Below the pieces are notes generated by a model. The model did no database searches and had not been told where the DNA came from. It saw only the letters and a program-made list of their open reading frames with translations. 32,724 bases of DNA from an uncultured Clostridia bacterium. Lineage in GTDB: Bacteria; Bacillota; Clostridia; TANB77; UBA1234. Below are positions 1 to 12,096 of the stretch, piece by piece (position 1 is the stretch's first letter; each line of letters starts with the position of its first letter). A program made the position numbers and the translations under genes. Location: the NCBI GenBank assembly GCA_944393265.1, contig CALXZO010000015.1, positions 1-32,724 of the forward strand, given 5' to 3'.

Positions 1-2
1 AT

Positions 3-128
3 AATGACGTAAAAGAAATTATTATAAAAATAGATGATGACAAAGAATATTATTATTTATATGATTCAGAAAATGGCGTACCTTTTGGCAATGATAAAAC
101 ATGCTATAAAAGAGAAAATGTAGAATGA
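3..128 (+). CDS. C-terminal fragment of an unrecognised cargo gene (left element)
   Basis: An open frame enters from the left window edge and ends at a TGA at 126-128, giving 41 residues. The fragment is acidic and tyrosine-rich (IDDDKEYYYLYDSENG) with no recognisable motif. It sits on the plus strand just before the hairpin and terminator block that is shared with the right element, which is the place held there by the four-helix membrane protein gene (4390-5331). The two C-termini are not alike, so the left element appears to carry different cargo. Function unknown; with only the tail visible, even its being a real gene is moderately supported. Confidence 0.4.
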   Translation, partial: NDVKEIIIKIDDDKEYYYLYDSENGVPFGNDKTCYKRENVE

Positions 129-174
129 AAAATATAAGTGAAATTTTAGGGGATTGGGGATTTTGCCCCATATT

Positions 175-209
175 CTGAATTTGAAGTATTACAAATTCAG
201 TGCTTGCTA
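175..209. repeat. Hairpin plus TGCTTGCTA module, left element copy
   Basis: The arms CTGAATTTG and CAAATTCAG (175-200, with an interior mismatch) are followed directly by TGCTTGCTA at 201-209. The same module occurs at 5428-5462 with a perfect 11-bp stem. It lies between the cargo tail and the terminator. Its role is unknown. Confidence 0.6.
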
Positions 210-235
210 TGTAGTAAAAATCGCAAAATTAAAAA

Positions 236-286
236 GAGCTGATTTTTTGAGGTTAAAAATTTCTTCAAAAATTCAGCTCGTTTTTT
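236..286. terminator. Bidirectional terminator between cargo and cassette, left element
   Basis: The stem GAGCTGA/TCAGCTC (236-242 and 273-279) extends inward through TTTTTTGA/TCAAAAA. It is followed by a T run on the plus strand and preceded by an A run, so it could end transcripts converging from the plus-strand cargo and the minus-strand cassette. A homologous copy is at 5533-5586. Confidence 0.75.
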
Positions 287-325
287 ATCTCAGTTCACAA
301 AATTTTCACTAAAAATTTTTGTGAT

Positions 326-649
326 TTACTCTTTTAAAATTCCAATGTTTTTAAAATAAAAGTAGGCTTCTCGACCTCCTAAAAAGAAGATTGCTTGCTC
401 TTCAAAATTTTTAATTTCGAGGTTTAAATTGAAAAGTTTTTGAAGCATCTTGCTATCATTTTTATTTAAAGTTATGTCTTCGTCATCTTCGCAAATTAAT
501 TGCAAATTTGGATGACTATCCATTATTTTTGCCACTTCATTTTGCAATTTTTTATACTCGAGATTCTTGTTTCGCAAGGCAACTTTTGCCTTATCAATCA
601 TCTCACTAAAATCTATATTTTCTATATTAAACAATTCAAATTCATTCAT
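326..649 (-). CDS. Small acidic protein of RepA/TnpV cassette (DUF6664-like, tentative), left copy
   Basis: The product has 107 residues, the same length as its homologue at 5624-5947, with which it shares a near-identical C-terminus ending EAYFYFKNIGILKE. The start at 649 is preferred over an in-frame ATG five codons upstream because TGAGGT sits at the right distance before it and because the homologue starts there. The protein is mostly helical and charged, with no signal or membrane segment. Position after tnpV, length and the C-terminal pattern recall the DUF6664 proteins of Clostridia mobile elements, but that match is from memory. It is the last gene of a three-gene minus-strand unit. 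Function unknown; a helper role in replication or maintenance of the element is only an inference from its neighbours. Confidence 0.8.
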   Translation of the reverse strand: MNEFELFNIENIDFSEMIDKAKVALRNKNLEYKKLQNEVAKIMDSHPNLQLICEDDEDITLNKNDSKMLQKLFNLNLEIKNFEEQAIFFLGGREAYFYFKNIGILKE

Positions 650-677
650 TTGTTTATACCTCATTTCTTTTGAAATT

Positions 678-1031
678 TTAATTATAAATTAGTTCGTTGA
701 GCACAATTTCTTCAGCTCGATTTTTAATATTGTTCATCTTTTGCACCCATTCAAGTTGGTTAGTAGCTTTTAAATTTTCTGTAACATTTTCTTCTTCAGC
801 AAGTTGTTTTATAAGTGTTTCTAAATAGCTACAAGCTTGATTGTTTATTTCGATTAAGTGATCAATTAATTCTTCTTTCATTACCAAGTGATTAAAAAAT
901 CCAGGTTTTGAATTTCTTAAATAGTTTTCTCTTAACATTGCATATTTTCCCCAATTTACTCTTTTATTATTGTTTTGTAATTCAATATTAGGTAAGTAGT
1001 AATCGCCTTTTTTTACATATTCTAAATCCAT
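678..1031 (-). CDS. tnpV: TnpV-family protein, left copy
   Basis: The 117-residue product shows the pattern of the transposon-encoded TnpV family (PF14198): an N-terminal GDYYLP, a central RENYL, and a C-terminal stretch around WVQKMNNIKNRAEEIVLNE. It matches the copy at 5974-6327 in length and along its whole extent. The start at 1031 is chosen over an ATG six codons upstream because AGGAGG lies just before it and the homologue begins there. That AGGAGG is inside the last codons of the upstream repA gene, which suggests translational coupling. TnpV proteins travel with Clostridia transposons and conjugative elements; their biochemical role is not established. Confidence 0.88.
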   Translation of the reverse strand: MDLEYVKKGDYYLPNIELQNNNKRVNWGKYAMLRENYLRNSKPGFFNHLVMKEELIDHLIEINNQACSYLETLIKQLAEEENVTENLKATNQLEWVQKMNNIKNRAEEIVLNELIYN

Positions 1032-1032
1032 T

Positions 1033-1620
1033 TTAAAGTCCTCCTTCATTTTTTATAAAATCATTTGCATTTGCAAGGAATCTATCTAAGTTTTCATATT
1101 GAGCTGTGGTGTCTCTAAATCTATTATCGAAATTTTTAAAGTTAAAATTATTATCTATATTAGTTTTATTATTATTAGTCTTATTAGGTCGTAAATTTTC
1201 CGACTCTGGAGTCGTAGAATTTCCGTGTTCAGAATCGTAATTTTTACGACTCTGAGCAGAATTACCAAAATAAGGGTTTATTTTACCTATGTAAATAATG
1301 TTTGGCTTTGAAGATTGCTGTCTTTTCTCATAGATTAGCTCGCAAGCTTTTAGTTCTTTAAACGCTTTTGTAACGGTCTTATCTGATAAATGTAGCAATT
1401 CTTGAATTTTCTTTCTTGCGAAAATTAGATAAACATTGCCAGTTTTTTCATCTATCCAATTATTTTTAATAGATAAGCTAAGTCTATCTAGCAAAAAGCC
1501 ATATATTATCTTGCTATCTGAATTTAAATGTTTATAAAGTGGGTTAATGAATAGGTCTTTTGGGATTTTGATATATTGATGGTTAAAGCATTCATTTGCT
1601 TTATAGGCTAGAAATGCCAT
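1033..1620 (-). CDS. repA: RepA_N-type replication initiator, left copy
   Basis: The 195-residue product carries the RepA_N domain (PF06970), a winged-helix DNA-binding fold found in plasmid and conjugative-element initiators. The signature is IPKDLF near residue 20, SDSKIIYGFLLDRLSLS, then a WVDE-like turn (WIDE), VYLIFARKKIQELL and the ELIYEKRQ wing. The asparagine-rich tail after about residue 120 is low complexity and differs from the right copy, as is normal in this family. The start at 1620 follows GAAAGGA at good spacing; an ATG six codons upstream lacks this. It is the first gene of the cassette. It probably initiates replication of the excised circle, but it is shorter than full-size plasmid RepA proteins, so a regulatory role is also possible. 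Confidence 0.85.
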   Translation of the reverse strand: MAFLAYKANECFNHQYIKIPKDLFINPLYKHLNSDSKIIYGFLLDRLSLSIKNNWIDEKTGNVYLIFARKKIQELLHLSDKTVTKAFKELKACELIYEKRQQSSKPNIIYIGKINPYFGNSAQSRKNYDSEHGNSTTPESENLRPNKTNNNKTNIDNNFNFKNFDNRFRDTTAQYENLDRFLANANDFIKNEGGL

Positions 1621-1674
1621 ATTTATTGTTCCTTTCAATTAGCTTAAAGAAGCATAAATACTTAGATTTGATGA

Positions 1675-1728
1675 TTCGTGAAATTTCGTGAAATTCTACT
1701 TCGAAATTCGTGAAATCAATTCGTGAAA
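1675..1728. repeat. Four direct TTCGTGAAA repeats
   Basis: TTCGTGAAA occurs at 1675, 1685, 1707 and 1720, between the left repA and the att copy. These may be iterons bound by the RepA_N protein or arm-type sites for this element's own integrase. The right element has a different repeat (TTTCCGAACA) in the same place. Confidence 0.7.
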
Positions 1729-1770
1729 CAAAATTGATATTTTGCGGAATTTTTAGATATTTATAGAAAT

Positions 1771-1818
1771 TAAAAAATACCACCATAATCAACTTAATTC
1801 CTTGATTATAGCGGTATT
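1771..1818 (-). terminator. Terminator near right end of left element
   Basis: On the minus strand, the arms AATACC...TTGATTAT and ATAATCAA...GGTATT form a long imperfect stem (1776-1818) followed by a T run. The right element has a structurally equivalent but unrelated hairpin at 7065-7105. When an element sits beside the tRNA-Pro gene this hairpin would end its transcript. Confidence 0.65.
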
Positions 1819-1874
1819 CATGTTTTTAGAATTTTCTCAAATTCTTATCCGTACCCTTGAAAAAGGGTAAAAAA

Positions 1875-1888
1875 TGGTCGGGGTGACA
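1875..1888. repeat. Attachment-site copy of tRNA-Pro 3' end (element junction)
   Basis: The 14 bases TGGTCGGGGTGACA are identical to the last bases of the tRNA-Pro gene at 7154-7167 (CCA end, acceptor strand and start of the T stem, read on the minus strand). Outside these bases the flanks diverge on the right side, as expected for a core crossover site. The integrase gene begins about 90 bases further on. Confidence 0.85.
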
Positions 1889-1944
1889 ATTTCACATGTT
1901 TCCAAAGTTTCCTTTGATTTCAACCTTTTCCTTATTTATTTTCT

Positions 1945-1973
1945 TTTTCCTGAACATTTTTTCCGAACTTTTT
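1945..1973. repeat. Putative integrase arm sites, left end of right element
   Basis: Two neighbouring copies, TTTTCCTGAACATTTT and TTTTCCGAACTTTT, lie between the att core and the integrase stop codon. Matching copies occur near the other end of the element at 6966-7035. Placement near both ends is typical of arm-type sites bound by the integrase N-terminal domain. Confidence 0.55.
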
Positions 1974-1979
1974 CTCATT

Positions 1980-3290
1980 TTATTTATTATTTTTTATTAG
2001 TTCAACGAACTTTTTAGTTTCTTCTTTTTGATAATATGGGTAGATATCTCCATAAGTATTTATGGTAGTTGCTATATCTGCGTGACCCATTAGTTTTTGT
2101 AATACAGCAGTTCCAACACCAGCTTCTATACAACGAGTAGCGAATGTATGTCTTAACATATGCGTATTTACAGCTTTTGTTATACCTGCATTTTTACAAA
2201 TTCTTTTGAAAGCTGAATTAACAGTATTATCTGCATATAGTTGTCCATTTTCTTGACAGAAAAGTACGTTGTTACTGTTTTTTATTACTTTACTTAAAGA
2301 ATCATTTAGAATAGGTTCTATTAGCTCATTTATTTGAATGGTTCTTTTTCCATTTTTTGTTTTAGTTGGTCCAATTATTATATTTTTCTTTTTATCTTTA
2401 GTTAAGGTTTTGTTTATGAATATTATTTTATTATCTAGATCAATATCTTCTTTATAATTCAAAGCTAGAAGCTCTCCTATACGAATACCAGTGTATAAAC
2501 ATAGAAGGATTATGTTTTTATATTTGCAAGGGTGCATTTCTAAATAATCTTCTAGTTTCTTTTGTTCTGTTAAAGTAAGAGCGACAATATCTTTATCTTC
2601 CTTTATGCTTTTTGGCTTTTCAATGCGATTAATTCCTTCAAAGAAGTTATTTGCGATATATAGCTGATGACTTGCATATTCATAAACATATTTAAGCATT
2701 CTATAATCTTTTTTTATTACAGAGTTTGATTTAACTCTTTCTTTTTCTAAGAAGTTTTCGATTTGTTCCTTTGTAACTTTCTTAATTGGAATATTAGCAA
2801 ATTTGTGTTTCTTAATTCTTTCTAAAGTAGCCATATTAGTGTTGTACGCATTTGCTTTAGTTTTTCCCATTCTAAATTTTGAATCTTCAATTTCTTGAGC
2901 TATAATAGCAATAGTTTTTTCAGTTTTTCTTAATTCCGTGCTTACACCAGACTTTTTCATTTCAAGTTTATATTGAAACATTTTGTCTAGTGCATCATCA
3001 ACAGAGTTTCCAAGAAAAGGCTTTCTAATATTTTTACCAGTTTCAATATCTTTACCTATTGTGAGAAGTGCACGATGTTCAATGCTAATGTAGAACTTAT
3101 CGCAATTTTCTTTGTCTGTACATTTTTTGCATTTATTACAGTTGCTCATAGTTTTCTTGTTTTTACGGTTTTCACATAAAGCTTTATTCTTACACTTTTT
3201 ACAAGTAGGGCAAATAGGTAAATTAGAAGTCTTCTTTTCTTTTTTGTTTATGTATGTTCCTGCACTGTAACCTTTCTTAATGATAATCAT
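1980..3290 (-). CDS. int: Tyrosine site-specific integrase with double Cys4 N-terminus
   Basis: The 436-residue product catalyses integration and excision at the tRNA-Pro 3' end. The catalytic set is complete: R270 in YTGIRIGELLAL, a lysine near 310-316 in TKTKNGKR, H377 and R380 in HMLRHTFATR, H403 in MGH, and nucleophile Y413 in NTYGD. A SAM-like core-binding domain spans roughly 120-225. The N-terminus has two C-x2-C-x2-C-x5-C motifs exactly 24 residues apart (C27, 30, 33, 39 and C51, 54, 57, 63), probably binding zinc and perhaps arm-site DNA. The annotated ATG directly abuts AAAGGAG with no spacer; ATT or ATC codons 2-4 would be better spaced, so the true start may be non-canonical. It lies beside the att core with the excisionase gene upstream, as in Tn916-type modules. 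Confidence 0.95.
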   Translation of the reverse strand: MIIIKKGYSAGTYINKKEKKTSNLPICPTCKKCKNKALCENRKNKKTMSNCNKCKKCTDKENCDKFYISIEHRALLTIGKDIETGKNIRKPFLGNSVDDALDKMFQYKLEMKKSGVSTELRKTEKTIAIIAQEIEDSKFRMGKTKANAYNTNMATLERIKKHKFANIPIKKVTKEQIENFLEKERVKSNSVIKKDYRMLKYVYEYASHQLYIANNFFEGINRIEKPKSIKEDKDIVALTLTEQKKLEDYLEMHPCKYKNIILLCLYTGIRIGELLALNYKEDIDLDNKIIFINKTLTKDKKKNIIIGPTKTKNGKRTIQINELIEPILNDSLSKVIKNSNNVLFCQENGQLYADNTVNSAFKRICKNAGITKAVNTHMLRHTFATRCIEAGVGTAVLQKLMGHADIATTINTYGDIYPYYQKEETKKFVELIKNNK

Positions 3291-3347
3291 CTCCTTTCGT
3301 TTTATTTTTACTTGGCTTTAAATAAGCACTTTTTAAATAAAATTAAA

Positions 3348-3414
3348 GGAAATACCTTGTTTTTTATACTAATTTTTTATATAATACATTTGAACAATTT
3401 AAACAGGTATTTCC
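3348..3414. repeat. Inverted repeat between int and xis
   Basis: GGAAATACC-TTGTTT (from 3348) and AAACAGGTATTTCC (3401-3414) are inverted copies with one extra T, separated by about 38 AT-rich bases. It lies in the 149-base gap between the xis stop and the int start. It may be a terminator-attenuator for the xis transcript or a protein-binding site; the sequence does not decide. Confidence 0.55.
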
Positions 3415-3439
3415 CTGTAAGTTTGGAAGATTTAATGTG

Positions 3440-3656
3440 CTAGATTAAGTCTTCTTTTTTATTTGTCAGTATTCTTTTTTGACTTAAATATTCATTTAGG
3501 CAATCTTCTTTTACCCAGTATTTTCTGCCTATTTTAATACTAGGAAATTCATCAGAATGAAAGAGCTGCAAACATTTCTTTTTGCCTATCCTTAAGAGAG
3601 CACAGACCTCATCAGTTCCGATATAATTTGATTTTTAATTCTTTTGTACCTTCCAT
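3440..3656 (-). pseudogene. xis: Excisionase (MerR-type helix-turn-helix), frameshifted
   Basis: An ATG at 3656 follows AAGAGGTG and opens MEGTKELK, but this frame stops after 14 codons. The next frame (+1) then runs from 3628 to a TAG at 3440 and encodes NYIGTDEVCALLRIGKKK, ending in an IGRKYWVKEDCLNEYL wing, which is typical of short excisionase-like winged helix proteins. Removing one A from the A5 run near 3632-3636 joins the two parts into a 70-residue protein with the expected layout. It is therefore a one-base insertion in a homopolymer: a real mutation, a sequencing slip, or less likely recoding. If real, the element may be unable to excise. Its position just upstream of int fits the role. 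Confidence 0.75.
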
Positions 3657-3671
3657 AAAATCACCTCTTTC

Positions 3672-3700
3672 TTGACAACTTTATAATTATGGAGTATCAT
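3672..3700 (+). promoter_or_regulatory. Promoter of the cutA-like gene
   Basis: TTGACA (3672-3677), a 17-base spacer and TATCAT (3695-3700) form a near-consensus sigma-A promoter pointing to the gene at 3801. The -10 hexamer lies inside one arm of an inverted repeat, which suggests repression. Confidence 0.75.
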
Positions 3701-3730
3701 AAAATTACGATGTGAGCAATTTTACGATAC
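3694..3730. promoter_or_regulatory. Putative operator (13-bp inverted repeat) between xis and cutA-like gene
   Basis: GTATCATAAAATT (3694-3706) and AATTTTACGATAC (3718-3730) are inverted copies with one mismatch and an 11-base spacer. The left arm covers the -10 box of the plus-strand promoter, and the site sits upstream of the minus-strand xis/int genes. A dimeric repressor could control both directions, but no repressor gene is visible in the element. Confidence 0.6.
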
Positions 3731-3800
3731 TTCGTGTCATTGTTATTATATAGATAGCATTTTACTATGTCTAAGAAAGAGATATAGAGAGGTGTTTGAT

Positions 3801-4118
3801 ATGAGTGATTATTGTATGATAGAAACAGCATTTGATAATAAAAAGGAATTAGAGCAAGCCGTAAATGAATTATTGAATTTTAAACTGGTTTCAAGTTGCC
3901 AAGTAATTGAGAGCTCTAGTAAGTGGAACTGGAAAAATGAACGAGAAGAGGCAAAAGAGTATTTAGTATTTATGAAAACTAAGAAAGAACTAGTAAATAA
4001 TGTTTTTGATACGATAAAACATATTCATTCTTATGAATGTTTTGAATTTGCAATTTTTGACTTAACCAGTTGTAATAAGGAATATTTAAAATGGATAGAT
4101 GAAGAAACAGACGGATAA
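3801..4118 (+). CDS. cutA: CutA1-like protein carried by the element
   Basis: The 105-residue product has the CutA1 divalent-cation tolerance fold pattern: an N-terminal beta strand with IETAFDNKKELEQA, the segment SSCQVIESSSKWNWK, the core EEAKEYLVFMKTKK, H76-S-Y78 in IKHIHSYE, E82, and a C-terminal YLKWIDEET. CutA proteins form PII-like trimers; roles in copper tolerance have been proposed but remain unsettled. His and Glu equivalent to metal-site residues are kept, while the usual Pro before Glu is replaced by Phe. The ATG at 3801 is preferred over a GTG at 3792 because AGAGAGG overlaps that GTG and is well spaced for the ATG. It has its own promoter and terminator. CutA is normally a chromosomal housekeeping gene, so it is unusual cargo. 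Confidence 0.85.
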   Translation: MSDYCMIETAFDNKKELEQAVNELLNFKLVSSCQVIESSSKWNWKNEREEAKEYLVFMKTKKELVNNVFDTIKHIHSYECFEFAIFDLTSCNKEYLKWIDEETDG

Positions 4119-4122
4119 TAAA

Positions 4123-4148
4123 AAAAGCCATTCGAACGAATGGCTTTT
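4123..4148 (+). terminator. Terminator of the cutA-like gene
   Basis: A 12-bp perfect stem, AAAAGCCATTCG/CGAATGGCTTTT, starts four bases after the stop codon and ends in a T run. The flanking A run makes it usable in both directions. Confidence 0.85.
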
Positions 4149-4207
4149 GCTGACGCTTAGCATCAGCTCGGGTCAGGTCCTAATATAGTAAACTATTTCA
4201 GACCCGA
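4149..4207. other. Two consecutive stem-loops after the terminator
   Basis: GCTGACGC/GCATCAGC (4149-4167, one mismatch) is followed directly by TCGGGTC/GACCCGA (4168-4207), whose loop holds a second stem TATAGT/ACTAT. Neither ends in a T run, so they are not ordinary terminators. The remaining stretch to 4389 is AT-rich with no gene visible. A single-strand origin, transfer origin or small RNA are possible readings. Confidence 0.5.
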
Positions 4208-4389
4208 TAGAATAATATCTATACTCTATATTATTCAATTTGTATAATAAATTATACACGAAATTTGTGAAAAAGTACAGATTTTTTGCAAAAAAATTAT
4301 ATTTAGAAGGAAAATCTTTTAACTATTATACAAGACATAACTAAATTTATAGCTTTAGAAAGATAAATAATGGAAATAGGTGATAAATA

Positions 4390-5331
4390 ATGAACAATGA
4401 TTCTCGAAAAGAGGAAATAGAAAGACTAAAGAAAATAGATTTAATTAATTTAAAAATAAAAAGAAATAAGACGATACAAAAGATCCCTAGCATAATTTTA
4501 ATAATTTCTGTAGTATTATATATGGTAATGTTTGATAAGAGGTTGCCAAATACATTTGGTGGGATAGAATTATGGGAAAACATACTTATCTCCATAGCCA
4601 TACTATCAGTTATTCTTATTATAGTTCTTCAAATTTATCATAGATATTTAAGAAATAAAATCATAAAAGTTAGTATGAATAAAACAGATATGAAAAAAGT
4701 TAAAAAAGTAAGTCTTACCAAAGCTGGTATGAAAAAAATGTTTTTGACAATGTTGATTTTTACAGCTATTTATTGTTTGTTATCATACTATTTCTTTGAT
4801 ACTAATGCAATAAATGAAGTAAAAACTGATATATATATAACAACAATACCTATAATTTATATATTAAGCATTTTATTAATTTTCATTTACTACAGTATAT
4901 TTTATATTGATGAAGAAAATTTATTTAATAAAGAATTTGTACTTAAAGAACAGAGAAAAGAAATAGTTGAAATTTCCTTAGGGTATATGCATCACAGAAT
5001 ATATAAAAATTTTCAAGGAAGAATAGATAAATATGATGCCCAGTTCGTTATAGAACATAATATACATCACTATAATCGTTATAGTAAAGAAGATATTAAA
5101 TTAGCTATGTTTATTGAAACAAAAGATTTTGATAAGAATATTTTTATAACGAATAAAGGAGACGTTGAAAAAGTATTTATTAATGAATGTGGGCAGTTAG
5201 AAATAGCAGGTGATAATATTAAAATTGATAGTGGAAAAGAATATCGTTTTTATGTAATGAATGAATATACAAAGATAAAAAATATTGCAAAGGAAGTACT
5301 TGATAATATAAAAAATAATTATAATTTTTAA
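4390..5331 (+). CDS. Four-helix membrane protein of unknown function (element cargo)
   Basis: The 313-residue product starts with a charged amphipathic stretch (1-30), then has four hydrophobic segments at about 33-48, 62-83, 117-136 and 149-172, and ends with a soluble region (173-313) that is likely cytoplasmic. The region between helices 2 and 3 is lysine-rich. I do not recognise the family; the C-terminal half faintly recalls DUF3137-type proteins, which is only a lead. AGGTG precedes the ATG at 4390. It stands alone on the plus strand in the slot where the left element has a different gene, so it is accessory cargo. An antiphage or ion-related role would be speculation. Confidence 0.85.
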   Translation: MNNDSRKEEIERLKKIDLINLKIKRNKTIQKIPSIILIISVVLYMVMFDKRLPNTFGGIELWENILISIAILSVILIIVLQIYHRYLRNKIIKVSMNKTDMKKVKKVSLTKAGMKKMFLTMLIFTAIYCLLSYYFFDTNAINEVKTDIYITTIPIIYILSILLIFIYYSIFYIDEENLFNKEFVLKEQRKEIVEISLGYMHHRIYKNFQGRIDKYDAQFVIEHNIHHYNRYSKEDIKLAMFIETKDFDKNIFITNKGDVEKVFINECGQLEIAGDNIKIDSGKEYRFYVMNEYTKIKNIAKEVLDNIKNNYNF

Positions 5332-5341
5332 AAGAGATTTT

Positions 5342-5509
5342 GCATTTTGGTGTGGCACAAATGCGTTGCTTGCTAGGACAAAAAATTCAACTAAAAAATC
5401 GAGGGTTTGGGAGAATTCCATAATTTTCTGAATTTGTAGTATTACAAATTCAGTGCTTGCTACGACGAAAAAAGAAATTACGAAGTAATACTTTTTTCAT
5501 TGCTTGCTA
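5342..5509. repeat. Three hairpin plus TGCTTGCTA modules
   Basis: Three different hairpins are each followed by TGCTTGCTA: GCATTT/AAATGC (5342-5364) with the motif at 5367; CTGAATTTGTA/TACAAATTCAG (5428-5453) with the motif at 5454; and GAAAAAAG..ATTAC/GTAAT..CTTTTTTC (5467-5498) with the motif at 5501. The middle module is shared with the left element (175-209). The block sits between cargo and cassette. Function unknown. Confidence 0.6.
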
Positions 5510-5532
5510 AAACGATGAGATAAAAAATATAA

Positions 5533-5586
5533 CGAGCTGATGCTTGAAGATTAAAAATTTTCTTCAAAAATTCAGCTCGTTTTTTA
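5533..5586. terminator. Bidirectional terminator between cargo and cassette, right element
   Basis: CGAGCTGA (5533-5540) pairs with TTCAGCTCG (5571-5579), extended by TTGAAGA/TCTTCAA, followed by six T residues. It is homologous to the hairpin at 236-286. Confidence 0.75.
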
Positions 5587-5623
5587 ATTAAATTCACAAG
5601 ATTTTTAGTAAATTTTTTGTAAT

Positions 5624-5947
5624 TTATTCTTTTAAGATTCCAATATTTTTGAAATAAAAGTAGGCTTCTTTTCCACCTAAAAAGAAGATTTCTTGTTCTT
5701 CAAATTGGCTAATATCTAATTGCAAATTGAACAATTTTTGTAGCATTCGGCAGTCTGTTTTTGTTAAATTTATTTCTTTGTCATCTTCTAAAATCTGTTG
5801 CAAATTTGGATAAGATTCCATTATATTATCGACTTCTTCAAGTAGCTTTTTGTATTCTATATTTTTATTTTTTAGAGCAACTTTTGCATCACTTATTAGC
5901 TCGCTGAAGTCACAAAGTTCTAAATCATATAACCCATTTTCATTCAT
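5624..5947 (-). CDS. Small acidic protein of RepA/TnpV cassette (DUF6664-like, tentative), right copy
   Basis: The 107-residue product aligns end to end with the protein at 326-649; both end EAYFYFKNIGILKE and share a central LTKTDCRMLQKLFNL-like segment. It is predicted to be helical and soluble, with an acidic middle. AGAGGTC precedes the ATG at 5947. It is the third gene of the minus-strand cassette after repA and tnpV, with a terminator 38 bases downstream. Its conservation in both elements, whereas cargo differs, indicates that it belongs to the backbone. Function unknown. Confidence 0.85.
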   Translation of the reverse strand: MNENGLYDLELCDFSELISDAKVALKNKNIEYKKLLEEVDNIMESYPNLQQILEDDKEINLTKTDCRMLQKLFNLQLDISQFEEQEIFFLGGKEAYFYFKNIGILKE

Positions 5948-5973
5948 AAAATCGACCTCTTTTTGTTAGTATT

Positions 5974-6327
5974 TTAATTAAAAATGATGTCATTTAGCAC
6001 AATTTCTTCAGCCTGTTTTTTTATTGAATTCATCTTTCCAACCCAAGTTAATGGGTCTGTATTTTTCAAATTTTCATTTAAATTTTCTTTTTCTTTTAGT
6101 TGGTTTATTAAAAGTTCTAATTGCTCTTTTGCATTTTTGTCTGCCTGAATAATATCTTGTTGAAGCTTGCCAGTCATTAATAAATGATTATATATGCTAG
6201 GCTTATTTTCTTTTAAATAATTCTCTCTAAGCCTACCAAATCTTCCAATTTTATAGCTTGTATTATTAGCTGGTGCTTGTATATCTGGTATGTAATAATC
6301 TCCAATTTTGGTATATTTAAATTCCAT
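5974..6327 (-). CDS. tnpV: TnpV-family protein, right copy
   Basis: The 117-residue product shows the TnpV pattern (PF14198): GDYYIPDIQAP at the N-terminus, RENYLKENKP, and a C-terminal WVGKMNSIKKQAEEIVLND. AAAGGAGG precedes the ATG at 6327 with good spacing. It follows repA by 26 bases and precedes the small acidic gene by 26 bases, so the three are probably one transcript. TnpV is a marker of Clostridia mobile elements; its activity is not known. Confidence 0.9.
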   Translation of the reverse strand: MEFKYTKIGDYYIPDIQAPANNTSYKIGRFGRLRENYLKENKPSIYNHLLMTGKLQQDIIQADKNAKEQLELLINQLKEKENLNENLKNTDPLTWVGKMNSIKKQAEEIVLNDIIFN

Positions 6328-6353
6328 TTTAAATCCTCCTTTAATTTTTTAGA

Positions 6354-6899
6354 TTATATATAAAAGCTTTCTAAAAATTCTTTTGAATATGCGCTTCCAT
6401 TATTAAAACAGTTCTGAGGCTTATTTACTTTATTAGTATTAATATTATCAGTATTAGTTCCTCGTACATTCTCCGAGTCATTAATCGTAGAATCTCCGTT
6501 TCTAGAATCGTTAATTTTACGAATCAATGTTGGAAGTGAATCATCGTGTTCTATTTTTGCAACATAGATTTTGTTAGGTTGCCCTTTACCTTGCCTTTTT
6601 TCATATATCAGATTGCAGCTAGATAGTTGTTTGAAAGCTTTTGTTGCAGGTTTATCAGAAATATTTAATAACTTTTGCACTTCTTTACGAGTAAATATTT
6701 GATAAACATTACCATCGGGCTTATCCACCCATCCACTTTTTGCAGATAGGCTAAGGCGATTTAATAGAAAACCATATAAAATCTTACTATCAGAGTTTAA
6801 TTTCTTGCTATATTTATCATTTAGAAATAATTCTTGGGGAACTGGGAAGAATTTATGCTCCAGAACTTCATGTATTTTATAAAAATTAGTTTTTAACAT
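6354..6899 (-). CDS. repA: RepA_N-type replication initiator, right copy
   Basis: The 181-residue product has the RepA_N winged-helix domain in its first 115 residues: PVPQELFLN, SDSKILYGFLLNRLSLS, GWVDKPDGNVYQIF, a recognition-helix region ISDKPATKAFKQL, and NLIYEKRQGKGQPNKIYV. The tail is asparagine-rich and unlike that of the left copy. GAAAGGA precedes the ATG at 6899. Repeats of TTTCCGAACA lie just upstream (6966-7035) and could be its binding sites or integrase arm sites. It probably drives replication of the circular form; no separate origin could be fixed from the sequence. Confidence 0.87.
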   Translation of the reverse strand: MLKTNFYKIHEVLEHKFFPVPQELFLNDKYSKKLNSDSKILYGFLLNRLSLSAKSGWVDKPDGNVYQIFTRKEVQKLLNISDKPATKAFKQLSSCNLIYEKRQGKGQPNKIYVAKIEHDDSLPTLIRKINDSRNGDSTINDSENVRGTNTDNINTNKVNKPQNCFNNGSAYSKEFLESFYI

Positions 6900-6965
6900 A
6901 TATTTCCTTTCTAGAGAAAAAGCTTATTTAAAAGGATTTGAAGAATCAAAAGGATAAAAATTAAA

Positions 6966-7035
6966 TTTCCGAACTTTTCCAAACATTTTTTGAGGGATTT
7001 TAAATTTTCCCGAACATTGATTTCCGAACAATTTT
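6966..7035. repeat. Repeated TTTCCGAACA motifs, right end of right element
   Basis: Four related copies lie at 6966 (TTTCCGAACTTTT), 6975 (TTTTCCAAACATTTTT), 7005 (TTTTCCCGAACATT) and 7021 (TTTCCGAACAATTTT). The second and fourth are also followed by TTTTGAGG and ATTTT, so the repeat is longer there. Similar motifs occur at the opposite end (1945-1973). Confidence 0.6.
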
Positions 7036-7064
7036 GAGGATTTTTATAGAATTTTACGAAACTA

Positions 7065-7105
7065 TAAAAAAATACACATGACTCAAATTACTTTGATTCA
7101 TGTGT
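7065..7105 (-). terminator. Terminator at right end of right element, downstream of tRNA-Pro
   Basis: On the minus strand ACACATGAATCAAA pairs with TTTGAGTCATGTGT (one mismatch, four-base loop) and is followed by a run of seven T after an A. It lies about 50 bases past the tRNA-Pro 3' end and would end the tRNA transcript. Confidence 0.8.
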
Positions 7106-7153
7106 TTTCGTTACTTTGTAGTTTCCAAGATTTCTCTTAAATCTACTAAATAT

Positions 7154-7167
7154 TGGTCGGGGTGACA
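7154..7167. repeat. Attachment site inside tRNA-Pro 3' end
   Basis: TGGTCGGGGTGACA is shared with 1875-1888. It covers the CCA end, the acceptor 3' strand and the start of the T stem of the tRNA. Confidence 0.85.
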
Positions 7168-7229
7168 CGGATCGAACGTGCGACCTCATGGTCCCAAACC
7201 ACGCGCTCTACCAACTGAGCCACACCCCG
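7154..7229 (-). tRNA. tRNA-Pro (anticodon TGG)
   Basis: The 76-base gene includes an encoded CCA. Acceptor stem CGGGGTG/CACCCCG with discriminator A, D arm GGCTCAGTTGGTAGAGC, anticodon stem CGTGG/CCATG with loop TTTGGGA (anticodon TGG), and a T arm with GTTCGATC are all present. Its 3' end is the integration target of the element to its left, which restores the sequence exactly. Confidence 0.96.
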
Positions 7230-7401: not shown

Positions 7402-10400
7402 TTAATTCATAGATATGCCGTTACAAACTCTACAAGTCCAGCTGCCTGTTGTATGAGATCCATATTCTGCATTTCCTCCGCAATTAGTACATGTTCTTTT
7501 ATGTTGGGTTCTACTATGATAGTACCAACGTGACATGTTATGTCCTGTTGAGCTTCCGGATGTATATGTATAAGAGTTTCCACATCTTGTACAAGTTTTT
7601 CTATATGTTGCTGCCCTTGTACAAGTTGCACTGCTTTCTTGGCTAATTTCATAATCATGTCCCAATGCACCTGAACCATATTTTCCACAATATCTACAAT
7701 ATGAACCAGAAGTACATGTTGCACTTGTATAACTATGTTCACATATATTTGATATCGTAATTTGTGCCGTTCCTATTACTTTTCCATTATGTACACTTCT
7801 TGCATATATAGTACAATCGCTTGTAATAGTCAATGCTCCAGTATAATTTGTCCAACTCGAATTATTATAACTATATTGCAAAGTAGTAACAGGAATTGAC
7901 TTAGTTATAGTTACAGTTAGTGATGTTACGTAGCTCTCCGTACTTTTTCTAATTGAAATAACATCTGGTTTTATATTAAATGTTGTTGTTCTTGTTCCAG
8001 TATAATTTCCTCTTCCAGTCATTGTTATCGTAGCAGTTCCAACATTTAAATTGTTGCTATGTGCTACTGTGTAATCCGTATTCTCAACTAATCTCCTTGA
8101 TAAATCCTGATCTTGTAATACTGGATATTGTACGATATTACTTCCTGTATATGATATATCACTAACATTACTTAAAACTATATTGTTTAAAATTGATTTA
8201 GGAGATATTATAACTGTAGCACTTCCATAATAATCATGGAAATTTGGATTTGTTATATAAAAATATGTTGTAGTTGATACAATATTTGTATATTTTATCG
8301 GTGTTGTTGTTCCCATTGTATAATTGCTACTTGTAAGCTGAGACGTGCTATAATATATTGTTGACCCTGTTGTTGGCCATTTCGATGTAACCGTTATACC
8401 ATGCGCGGCATTGTCATATACTCCACTATAACCACTTACCTCTACTTGCATATTTGCTTTATCTATCCTAAATGTGGTGCTATTTGTGCCGGCATAATTA
8501 TTTCTACCTGTAATTGTTACTGTTGCAGTACCTACATTTACGTTATTTGAGTACGAAACAGTGTAATCAGAATCTTTCGTTAATACTTTATTTAATACAT
8601 TATCTCTTACAATTACTTGCGGTGTAATTGCATATCCTGTATACACCACAGGTGAAATTCCTTGAATTACAACTGAATTTGTAGTAGCAATAGATCTTGT
8701 TTCAATTTTCCAAACTATATTAAGTGAAGCATTTGTTCCATCCGTCCACATATAATTGTGTGGATCTTTTAGTGTAGCTATCGCAGTATACGTTCCCGCA
8801 TTTACTTTTGAATAATTTCCTTCTCTTATATAGTACTCTCCTTCAGGTATACCATACTTTACTGTTCCATCATATATTTGTCCTGTTATTGCAGTTGGCA
8901 TAGTTGTAGGCTTCGGAGTTATTTTAAAATATTTTTTATTAGTACTAAGAGTCAAATAGTAATTGTCTTTTTTAAATGATCCATTATTAACTAATGCTAA
9001 CGTTCCTATTTTTATTTCATAATCCCCAACTGCTGCTACTGCCTCTCTCGTCAACTGTCCGGTAAATCCAGGAGTTTCACCATTCATAACACCATCGTAT
9101 GTATATGTTAATATTGGAGTAGAATTTGTTCCATCATAAACTTTTCCTTGTCCGTCATCTGGTGTAACAATAATTTCTTTTTTATTGACAGTAACTTTTA
9201 TTTCTGTCTTTTTTATAAAATACATATCATCTTCTGCAATCTCGAATGATATAATTGTCTCTCCAACATTTTTAGGCGTTATATCTATATTCTTTCCTCT
9301 TATAACAACAGTTGCAACATTTTCATTTAGGCTTTTCACCGTTTCTGTTGACGCATTTCCCGCATATGAGAATCCTATTGTTCCAACATTATCTCCATAT
9401 ATAAAGTTTTTTGAAGTTTCTGTTAATGTAAGCTCTCTTATTCCTTTATTTAAAATTACTTCTATAGTTTTAGTATTACCTTTTCTTGACTCCGTTACAG
9501 TTACATCAACAACTCCAATCTTCGTTCCAGGCGTTATCGTTATTACATTTCCATTTATTTCGGCGGTTGCAATTTCTTCATCTGCACTTGATACTGTTAT
9601 ATCTCCAGTGTATGGGCTTTTTATAACAGTTATATCTGTACTTTCTTCATCAACGGCTGTCCTCACTAAGTTTTTACTTAATTCAAATGCCGTTCTTCCC
9701 CATACTGCTGTTAATTTTGTATCAGAATTATTTACATAATATGAACCTGGAATATAATTTACACTTGATTCATTTTCCGCTGGTTCAGTTAGCAAAGACC
9801 AACCAAGAAAAATATATTCTTCTCTATCTGGTGTTTGAGATGTTATAGTCATTGGCAATACATCCGCTTTATATTGTTTTGAAATTCCCCCACTTCCACC
9901 ATTCGCATCATATATAATTTCATATGTGCGTATATTAGCATTTGCATAATTACCTGCTAAATCTCTAAACCATATATAATATGTTCCATTTTCTAATACT
10001 TCATTAATTACACTTACATTTACATTTTCCTGCAAAGATTCCCATATTGTAGGAACTGCATTTGTTTTTGTCCACGCATATTCAGCGATTATACCTTCAT
10101 CATGCCCGCTTGCTATTAGCATTAAACTATCTCCAGATTGCATTGGAGTAACCATAACTGTTGGTGCTACTTCATCTCTCCAAACTGCATATAATATAAC
10201 ATCCGCATCTCTATTATAAATATCACCAGGTCTATAAACTACATTCTTAGAAGTACTACTAAATGACCAACCGTCAAAAATCAAATCTGTTCTCGTTGGC
10301 TCATGAGAATGAAGTATAGTCGTTCCCCCTTGTACTTTAGTTTGTTCTACAAAGTTACCATCTCCGCCATTTAAATCATATTTTATATGATATACATTTA

Positions 10401-12096
10401 TATGGCTCGTCCAAACTGCATAAAATATCACATCTCCTGTAATATTAAACGTATCGCCATCAACAAAATCTGCTGCTATTGCATTTTCATCTAAAGACCA
10501 CCCTAAAAAATCATAACCTTCTCTAGTTGGAATAATACTTGTTATATTAATAGTATCTCCATAATTTACACTTACCTCTGTAGGTGCTCCAACACCACTA
10601 TTCGCATCATATTTTACATTAAATTTTTTTGCTTCAAACATTGCTACTATAGTAACATCTGTGTTTGGCATTTCCAAGCTCGTTGTTGCACTATTTATAT
10701 TACCTAAGCTTACATTACCTGCTGTTACTTCCCAATTTTTAAAACGATATCCTTCATTTGCTATAGCTGATATTACAACAACAGAACCTGGGTTTTTAGT
10801 CCCTGCCCCATTTACTGTACCATATCCCACAGGTTCTATACTTAAACTTAATGTATTCATTCCTTTTTGCCATATTGCATATAAAATGATATTAGATGTT
10901 ACATTTATTGTTTCACCCGCATGATACTCACCCGTTGTTGCATTTGCAGATAAACTCCAACCATCAAAAGCAAAACCTTCTCTTCTTGGAGTAACATTAC
11001 TTATTATAACCTCTCCTGAAACATTTGTAACCATGCTTGGTGCTCCGTCTCCACCATTTGCGCTATATGATAAGCTATATGTTCTATTATCTTCTTTACT
11101 CCATATAGCATATAACACCGTATCCTCATCCAAGAAAAACTCACTATTAGATCTATATGTAGGTATTGTTGCTGTCGGATTAGTATCCCACCCAATAAAA
11201 ATATAATTATCTCTAGTTGGCACTTCTTCACTTAATCTCATTATTACGCCCTCAGTTTTTATAGAATCTGCGGGAGGATTTTCTCCACCATTAGCATCAT
11301 ATGAAATCGTATATGTTTCAGCATTAATTTCCGTTACATCTACTGTTGTACTACTCGTGCCCGCACCAGTCTCTGATGCTCTTATAATATATGTCTTATT
11401 TTCATAAACTGTACACTCAAAAGTCTCTGTATCTCCATCTCCACCTACCTTATTAGCTGCAGTATCTCCCACTATTACTATTAAATCACCACTAGATATT
11501 TTCTTTACAACTATTTCAATTAAAACACTCTTTTCATCCATACTTAATGTTTTGTTTACTGATACTATCTCTGGACCATTTGCTTCTAAATCTGCTACAG
11601 TGTAATACTTTCCTCCGTCTACTTCATATCCTTTAGCATAAAAAACCTTTCCTTCAGCATCATATATATATACATCATCTCTCCCAAATACAACTAAATT
11701 ATTTTCAACATCACCAGAATATTTTGGGTACTCTAATCCTCTTGGATTATTTTCAAATGTAATAAGCTCCATGTTAACAACATATCCATATACCGAATCT
11801 TCGCTAAAACTAACAAATGTCTCAGGAGGATTTTGTACATATGATTTATAAAATCCCTTATTTTTTATTTCCTCACCTGTTCCTTCTGTTTGATTCATTA
11901 AACGTGTGGACGAAACGCGAATTTCAACGTCTTTTAACTCCTGTGCAAAATTTGATCTAGATGCATCATCTAACGATCGCGTACTCGCAGAATATACTAT
12001 AGCTGCCAATATAATTATTACTATAATTGTGACAACAAGTGTAATCATTGAAATTCCTTTTTCTTTTTTAAACTCAGATATCTTTAAATTATTCAT
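7402..12096 (-). CDS. Giant surface protein: prepilin-like leader, InlB-type repeats, Cys-rich tail
   Basis: The 1564-residue product begins with a prepilin-like leader: KKEKG14 followed by ISMITLVVTIIV and a hydrophobic helix to about residue 35. The usual Glu at +5 is Thr. Repeats of the Listeria-Bacteroides/InlB B type (YDANGG...GW...LYAIW) start near 262, 339, 490, 567 and 722; a divergent bacterial repeat is near 415. From about 800 come Ig-like and YDG/MBG-like domains (YDGTNSTP near 983), two similar units with YTVSYSNNVNVGTATVTITG, and a chitobiase-C-like unit. The last 114 residues hold CxxC pairs (CRYCG, CTRCG, CTNCG, CRVCN) likely to bind metal. No LPXTG anchor is seen. AGGGGAAG precedes the ATG. 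A large adhesin, anchored or assembled through its leader, is the likely role. Confidence 0.9.
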   Translation of the reverse strand: MNNLKISEFKKEKGISMITLVVTIIVIIILAAIVYSASTRSLDDASRSNFAQELKDVEIRVSSTRLMNQTEGTGEEIKNKGFYKSYVQNPPETFVSFSEDSVYGYVVNMELITFENNPRGLEYPKYSGDVENNLVVFGRDDVYIYDAEGKVFYAKGYEVDGGKYYTVADLEANGPEIVSVNKTLSMDEKSVLIEIVVKKISSGDLIVIVGDTAANKVGGDGDTETFECTVYENKTYIIRASETGAGTSSTTVDVTEINAETYTISYDANGGENPPADSIKTEGVIMRLSEEVPTRDNYIFIGWDTNPTATIPTYRSNSEFFLDEDTVLYAIWSKEDNRTYSLSYSANGGDGAPSMVTNVSGEVIISNVTPRREGFAFDGWSLSANATTGEYHAGETINVTSNIILYAIWQKGMNTLSLSIEPVGYGTVNGAGTKNPGSVVVISAIANEGYRFKNWEVTAGNVSLGNINSATTSLEMPNTDVTIVAMFEAKKFNVKYDANSGVGAPTEVSVNYGDTINITSIIPTREGYDFLGWSLDENAIAADFVDGDTFNITGDVIFYAVWTSHINVYHIKYDLNGGDGNFVEQTKVQGGTTILHSHEPTRTDLIFDGWSFSSTSKNVVYRPGDIYNRDADVILYAVWRDEVAPTVMVTPMQSGDSLMLIASGHDEGIIAEYAWTKTNAVPTIWESLQENVNVSVINEVLENGTYYIWFRDLAGNYANANIRTYEIIYDANGGSGGISKQYKADVLPMTITSQTPDREEYIFLGWSLLTEPAENESSVNYIPGSYYVNNSDTKLTAVWGRTAFELSKNLVRTAVDEESTDITVIKSPYTGDITVSSADEEIATAEINGNVITITPGTKIGVVDVTVTESRKGNTKTIEVILNKGIRELTLTETSKNFIYGDNVGTIGFSYAGNASTETVKSLNENVATVVIRGKNIDITPKNVGETIISFEIAEDDMYFIKKTEIKVTVNKKEIIVTPDDGQGKVYDGTNSTPILTYTYDGVMNGETPGFTGQLTREAVAAVGDYEIKIGTLALVNNGSFKKDNYYLTLSTNKKYFKITPKPTTMPTAITGQIYDGTVKYGIPEGEYYIREGNYSKVNAGTYTAIATLKDPHNYMWTDGTNASLNIVWKIETRSIATTNSVVIQGISPVVYTGYAITPQVIVRDNVLNKVLTKDSDYTVSYSNNVNVGTATVTITGRNNYAGTNSTTFRIDKANMQVEVSGYSGVYDNAAHGITVTSKWPTTGSTIYYSTSQLTSSNYTMGTTTPIKYTNIVSTTTYFYITNPNFHDYYGSATVIISPKSILNNIVLSNVSDISYTGSNIVQYPVLQDQDLSRRLVENTDYTVAHSNNLNVGTATITMTGRGNYTGTRTTTFNIKPDVISIRKSTESYVTSLTVTITKSIPVTTLQYSYNNSSWTNYTGALTITSDCTIYARSVHNGKVIGTAQITISNICEHSYTSATCTSGSYCRYCGKYGSGALGHDYEISQESSATCTRAATYRKTCTRCGNSYTYTSGSSTGHNMSRWYYHSRTQHKRTCTNCGGNAEYGSHTTGSWTCRVCNGISMN

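Follow-up and report, generated by a model that had tools for sequence, protein, structure and literature searches.

Mobile elements that carry an origin of transfer (oriT) without a relaxase are a known kind. They include the relaxase-less mobilizable genomic islands (MGIs; PMC5704250), the iOriT class of integrative elements, which is defined by an oriT without a relaxase (PMC11389934), and the staphylococcal oriT mimics (PMC8136818). Here we examined two units that stand in tandem at a tRNA-Pro(TGG) gene of an uncultured Clostridia bacterium, in a stretch of 32,724 nucleotides (contig CALXZO010000015.1 of assembly GCA_944393265.1; hereafter the window). We found that both units are probably relaxase-less integrative and mobilizable elements (IMEs) of the oriT-only, or iOriT, kind, which would be moved in trans by the relaxases of integrative and conjugative elements (ICEs).

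As summarized in PMC5704250, the Vibrio MGIs of the SXT/R391 ICEs (Daccord et al.) resemble the window units in that they encode a tyrosine integrase and an excision factor of their own, lack genes for conjugation and carry an oriT that resembles that of an ICE, and they are mobilized in trans by the ICE relaxase. According to the same account they belong to Gammaproteobacteria, are 18–33 kb long and use a MobH relaxase and MobI, whereas the units described here come from gut Clostridia, measure 5–12 kb and combine a MOBP/NikA-type oriT with a RepA_N–TnpV–DUF6664 backbone, stacking at tRNA-Pro and variable defence cargo. The iOriT elements are likewise integrative, with an oriT and no relaxase (PMC11389934), but iOriT is a class definition, and in the literature searched no member had the backbone, site or cargo slot of the window units. 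Staphylococcal mimics of the pWBG749 type (PMC8136818, PMC4652767) are also relaxase-less and have several oriT subtypes matching different helpers, some with two or three mimics, but they are plasmids and not chromosomal tRNA-borne elements, with another oriT and the accessory protein SmpO. MTnSag1 and tISCpe8 are from Firmicutes, have no relaxase and are mobilized by an ICE, but they are transposons of 1.7–2 kb that use a DDE transposase and whose oriT is not related to the helper's (PMC5704250). A preliminary description of this DNA, made from the letters alone, had proposed that the family may be undescribed. Our literature search, which was not exhaustive, turned up neither the RepA_N–TnpV–DUF6664 backbone nor any oriT-only defence island from Clostridia; the kind of element is already represented by relaxase-less MGIs and iOriTs (PMC5704250, PMC11389934).

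The window is the entire contig C15 of a 1.45-Mb assembly (genome G000), so that there is no sequence to the left of position 1. The integration site, tRNA-Pro(TGG) (7154..7229, minus strand), is left intact. As had been noted before, its 14-bp 3′ end, TGGTCGGGGTGACA, is present in exact copies on the plus strand at 1875..1888, the boundary between the outer and the inner element, and at 7154..7167, the tRNA-side att core of the inner element; the inner unit spans 1876–7155 (about 5.28 kb). In the congener G005, window position 1886 runs directly into the tRNA-Pro gene, which represents the empty site of the inner unit, and in the congener G004 three att cores were found (L035 1481, 12934 and 18915). 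On these two grounds the repeat is not due to chance. The outer unit of the window is cut by the contig end, and a search elsewhere in its assembly did not find the rest of the element, including the integrase. The second integrase and third att copy that the preliminary description had expected further left were instead found in relatives. The outer element is complete in G005 (10.66 kb, cores at L034 4086 and 14742) and is the same in G004 (11.45 kb), where it has its own integrase and the third att copy; the integrase is present in both copies, and G001 holds one relative of 12.1 kb. Genes for GyrB, RecF, DnaN and DnaA lie at 13.8–20.0 kb of the window, so that the stacking was fairly described as taking place next to the replication origin, oriC. 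The element of 5.98 kb that occupies the inner slot of G004 (L035 12934–18915) is unrelated and encodes its own integrase, of 395 aa, as well as a DUF6291 protein, indicating that more than one family uses the tRNA-Pro slot.

Two homologous cassettes on the minus strand had been recognized at the outset, and Pfam matches were obtained in both, the small acidic protein being DUF6664. The inner cassette consists of DUF6664 (5624..5947; PF20369, 1.2e-13), TnpV (5974..6327; PF14198, 5.1e-38) and the replication protein RepA_N (6354..6899; PF06970, 2.4e-19), and the outer one of DUF6664 (326..664; 3.6e-9), TnpV (678..1049; 2.4e-38) and RepA_N (1033..1638; 2.7e-22), ending at 1638, to the left of the outer att core. 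The integrase reported beside the inner att copy proved to be an intact tyrosine integrase of 436 aa (1980..3290, minus strand; PF00589, 3.8e-35; phrog_1, 2.6e-63). An Xis-like helix-turn-helix (HTH) gene on the same strand (3440..3656) is frameshifted, with the start at 3656 and the HTH in another frame at 3634–3440; its intact homologue in G005 is HTH_17. When the open reading frames (ORFs) of the window were scanned with Pfam, PHROGs and NCBIfam, no relaxase, coupling-protein, mating-pair or capsid gene was found in the inner unit, in keeping with the earlier reading. The absence of its own relaxase sets the unit apart from canonical IMEs, and its intact integrase, though accompanied by a frameshifted xis homologue, sets it apart from cis-mobilizable elements (CIMEs), whose integration genes are lost. 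Nor does the unit belong to the IMEs of the Tn4451 type, which pair TnpV with a serine recombinase: it has TnpV, but its recombinase is a tyrosine integrase. A RepA_N domain is present while the unit is integrated in the chromosome.

The preliminary description had called the inner unit a minimal integrate-and-replicate element, which overlooks an oriT in each unit, at the border between cassette and cargo. With these oriTs, the units are likely to move by conjugation, mobilized in trans. Using a covariance model of the oriT (R1; 8 seed sequences), we found an ICE-type oriT in the outer unit (148..209, plus strand; 80.6 bits, E 2.6e-16 in its genome), made up of a GGGG-rich part, a hairpin, a GTATTAC loop and TGCTTGCTA, with 82% identity to the oriT of the ICE at G000:C4. 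The inner unit has an ICE-type oriT at 5401..5462 (site 2; 78.6 bits, E 8.1e-16) and, on the same plus strand, two oriT-like sites. Site 1 (5337..5375; 14.6 bits) is of the IME type, contains ACAAATGCGTTGCTTGCT and agrees exactly over 18 nt with the oriTs that lie upstream of nikA-relaxase in L037, L046 and L069, while site 3 (5472..5509; 16.4 bits) consists of a hairpin and TTGCTTGCTA and has 15 nt in common with an oriT of L107 that is linked to a relaxase. Sites 1 and 3 are weak in R1, so that their function is a suggestion. All four copies of TGCTTGCTA in the window fall within the two units (0.34 expected; none of 100 shuffles reached four), and three such sites stand within 143 bp of the inner unit. 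The hairpin covaries, with four of nine pairs changed on both sides, and 86% of its cells were paired, compared with at most 51% when slid.

The ICE-type oriT matches the sequence upstream of nikA-relaxase in the ICE at G000:C4, in the host's own genome, which encodes NikA-like, Relaxase, DUF3801, VirD4 (8e-43) and TraG/VirB4-like ATPase proteins. In relaxase-bearing relatives the oriT is of the IME type, with a hairpin and TTGCTTGC upstream of the NikA-like and relaxase genes; at the same place the relaxase-less elements have the hairpin, the GTATTAC loop and TGCTTGCTA. Furthermore, in the nic-side 24-mer both window units agree at every position with two ICEs of other genomes (L133, L135), as the G001 element does with the G000:C4 ICE. 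R1 matched in 59 of 287 genomes of the order at E≤1e-6, and NikA or relaxase genes lay within 1.5 kb in 33 of 48 fetched non-seed match loci, an approximate figure because some of the 48 were seeds met again or neighbouring matches at one place. When about 85,000 named genomes were scanned for the exact pattern, six places matched, namely the elements of the three congeners, the ICEs L133 and L135, which had not been met before and have nikA-relaxase-VirD4, and one ParA contig without a recognised relaxase.

A pattern by integration site emerged from a survey of six genomes of the genus, all of them metagenome-assembled genomes (MAGs) as far as their titles tell. All units at tRNA-Pro(TGG) were without a relaxase and had the ICE-type oriT (5/5), whereas the elements at other tRNAs all had a relaxase (4/4; Fisher p 0.008 for units that are not independent). 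For the relatives in G004, G005 and G001 this status was assigned with our own relaxase hidden Markov model (HMM), a PF03432 genome search and partial Pfam and PADLOC scans covering most, not all, ORFs; the HMM and PF03432 found no relaxase inside these complete elements. The relaxase-bearing IMEs lie at tRNA-Gln (G000:C5, G005:C28 and one in G001:C67) or tRNA-Pro(CGG) (another in G001:C67). They share the RepA_N–TnpV–DUF6664 cassette adjoining the tRNA and, in the two that were completely read (G000:C5 and G005:C28), an integrase at the far end, but they differ in that the cassette is followed immediately by genes for a NikA-like protein and a MOBP relaxase, in their IME-type oriT and in their sites. 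The G000:C5 element is also alike in its cargo, a type II restriction-modification system.

We found that the outer backbone is common to three species, already relaxase-less and with the same oriT, at 94–95% identity. Window positions 1–1887 are 95.1% identical to L035 11059–12945 of G004, and this 1.9 kb compares with 75–81% identity in the gyrB–dnaA segment between the window species and G004 or G005. The chromosomal flanks of the window differ from those in the relatives' genomes, and those of G004 and G005 are 81–88% identical to each other. By this comparison the outer element has recently spread horizontally between species. Between G004 and G005 the int–xis and cassette ends are 94–95% identical and the cargo between them is unrelated, which reveals the cargo slot directly and bears out the conserved backbone with variable cargo that had been proposed. 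By PADLOC and Pfam, the slot of G005 holds IetAS together with an NgoFVII-like restriction system, that of G004 a HaeIII-like one together with a cyclic-oligonucleotide-based anti-phage signalling system (CBASS; SMODS/AGS-C plus SLATT_4), and that of G001 AbiP2, a type IIG enzyme, DolA/DolB (Dodola) and PDC-S01. With no relaxase, an ICE-type oriT and defence genes in the relatives of the outer element, the units look like small defence islands hitch-hiking between species.

A single relaxase-less clade was rejected for TnpV and DUF6664 (approximately unbiased test, p-AU 2.8e-5), suggesting that the cassette was repeatedly exchanged or recombined. The inner integrase groups with the integrase of a MobV element from another family at the same tRNA (96/97). 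Hence, of the tandem array of related elements first described, the two stacked units stand, and their descent as sisters from one clean lineage does not: their integrases differ, the relaxase-bearing relatives with which their cassettes group are not the same, and the neighbour of the outer element in G004 is unrelated. DUF6664 alone was rejected as a marker of these elements, because it sits in ICEs too outside the genus.

We weighed three other explanations against mobilization in trans. The units could be decayed IMEs, similar to CIMEs, that lost nikA-relaxase after insertion, leaving the oriT-like motif as a relic and the array as a graveyard kept by chance. The frameshifted xis homologue and the resemblance of inner site 1 to a relic of an IME-type oriT agree with this, and decayed tandem elements are common (PMC5704250). 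We consider it unlikely, however, since the outer backbone spread over three species while relaxase-less and with its oriT unchanged, the kept oriT is of the ICE type where simple deletion would leave the IME type, and the integrases and RepA_N are intact. Nor is the motif at all likely to be a regulatory or terminator hairpin, with movement only by integrase and natural uptake or by homologous recombination at the tRNA: it is intergenic and downstream of DUF6664, a place fit for a terminator, but it is not bound to DUF6664, standing just upstream of nikA-relaxase in ICEs and other IMEs, and its near-invariant TGCTTGC end lies outside the hairpin. Packaging by a helper phage, with RepA_N and the integrase belonging to satellites like phage-inducible chromosomal islands, would suit the size, the integrase and xis, and the replication initiator with its DnaD-like PHROG matches; defence cargo is typical of satellites too. 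This explanation is scarcely credible, as genes for a terminase, capsid, portal or any other packaging function were absent from the scanned ORFs, neither PHROGs nor Pfam gave a match to packaging or capsid-interference genes, an oriT is present, and the backbone is common to relaxase-bearing siblings.

Several points weigh against mobilization by ICE relaxases as well. Transfer, nicking and excision are inferred and none was observed; because the xis homologue is frameshifted, the inner unit may be unable to excise alone; its own cargo has no defence match; the PF03432 search of the G004 genome finds no relaxase there at present; and the co-residence of the helper ICE with the elements depends on binning, the genomes being MAGs.

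The sequence shows that the tyrosine integrase brings the circular form in at the 3′ end of the tRNA-Pro(TGG) gene while the tRNA stays intact, so that later arrivals take the place next to the tRNA. Once excised, the circle is probably replicated or stabilised by the RepA_N cassette. If the units are relaxase-less IMEs, NikA, the MOBP relaxase, the coupling protein and the pore would come from a co-resident ICE of the C4 type; because the oriTs match, its relaxase may nick the ICE-type oriT of the unit, which would be exported as a single strand. The stretch from xis to oriT is the cargo slot, filled with anti-phage systems in the relatives and with a CutA-like and a membrane protein in the inner unit, whose three nic-like sites, of at least two types, may widen the choice of helper.

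A wider picture is conceivable, and we offer it tentatively, as something we would not yet expect to hold in full. In gut Clostridia, tRNA-stacked defence islands may have repeatedly swapped their own relaxase and oriT for mimics of resident ICE oriTs, tracking the ICE oriT subtypes, and three oriT sites of different helper specificity may let one minimal element such as the inner unit ride several conjugative systems and deliver swappable anti-phage modules. Repeated exchange of relaxase and oriT is supported by the rejection of a single clade, which cassette recombination could also produce. Many genomic and defence islands have no visible means of moving, and in this case the signal that was missing is identifiable as a 62-bp ICE-type oriT. 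With this finding, oriT mimicry, which is known from Vibrio MGIs and plasmids of staphylococci, would extend to defence islands of Clostridia that are borne at tRNAs. As relaxase-orphan oriTs are picked up by R1 throughout the order, in some cases next to genes of AbiE or type I restriction, the spread of relaxase-less defence islands in gut Clostridia is directly testable.

In other genera, such orphan matches had as neighbours AbiEi/AbiEii genes and the gene of an HsdM-like type I methylase (L104 in G008:C17, L177 in G161:C10 and L105 in G027:C24). We also observed a second kind of small relaxase-less element with a large serine recombinase (Resolvase/Recombinase), an oriT of the R1 model and an ORF of about 100–130 aa, several with a KilA-N or similar gene (L111, L113, L160, L161, L162, L168 and L169). 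In addition, on a 6.4-kb contig (L131, CAMNDS010000054) ParA and an ICE-type oriT occur with another TGCTTGCT-like site close by; no relaxase was recognised on this contig, which is possibly an oriT-only plasmid.

Among the remaining genes, the outer unit begins with the 3′ end of a DUF4236 membrane-protein cargo gene (1..127, plus strand), cut by the contig end and identified through PF14020 on the full L035 protein. The inner cargo, on the plus strand, consists of the CutA-like protein (3792..4118; PF03091, 1.8e-20) and the 313-aa membrane protein (4390..5331), which had no family match in Pfam, PHROGs or PADLOC, one weak relative among 191 genomes and an uninformative AlphaFold model (pLDDT, the predicted local distance difference test, 44). 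A conserved non-coding segment on the minus strand (4118..4298), defined by a seven-sequence alignment and a consensus fold, is a candidate small RNA with a promoter-like box and a terminator. Rfam assigned it no family at threshold; FasX (29 bits) and Plasmid_RNAIII (23 bits) were far under the curated cut-offs and were not used. Its kin form a conserved segment of about 150 nt in mobile elements of several families (L070 5660–5838, L071 5814–5998, L039 5903–6073, L040 and L044), in which a TATAAT-like box, a hairpin that covaries (GACGC/GCGTC) and a strong terminator are found together, and in L070 and L071 it adjoins TnpV-like genes. The T-arm of the window tRNA-Pro(TGG) is unlike that of the congeners G001, G002, G004 and G005 and nearly or fully identical to that of other genera and families (G010, G012 and G052). 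Just to the right of the tRNA lies a gene (7402–12096) whose 1564-aa product has repeats and, at its N terminus, a prepilin-like segment.

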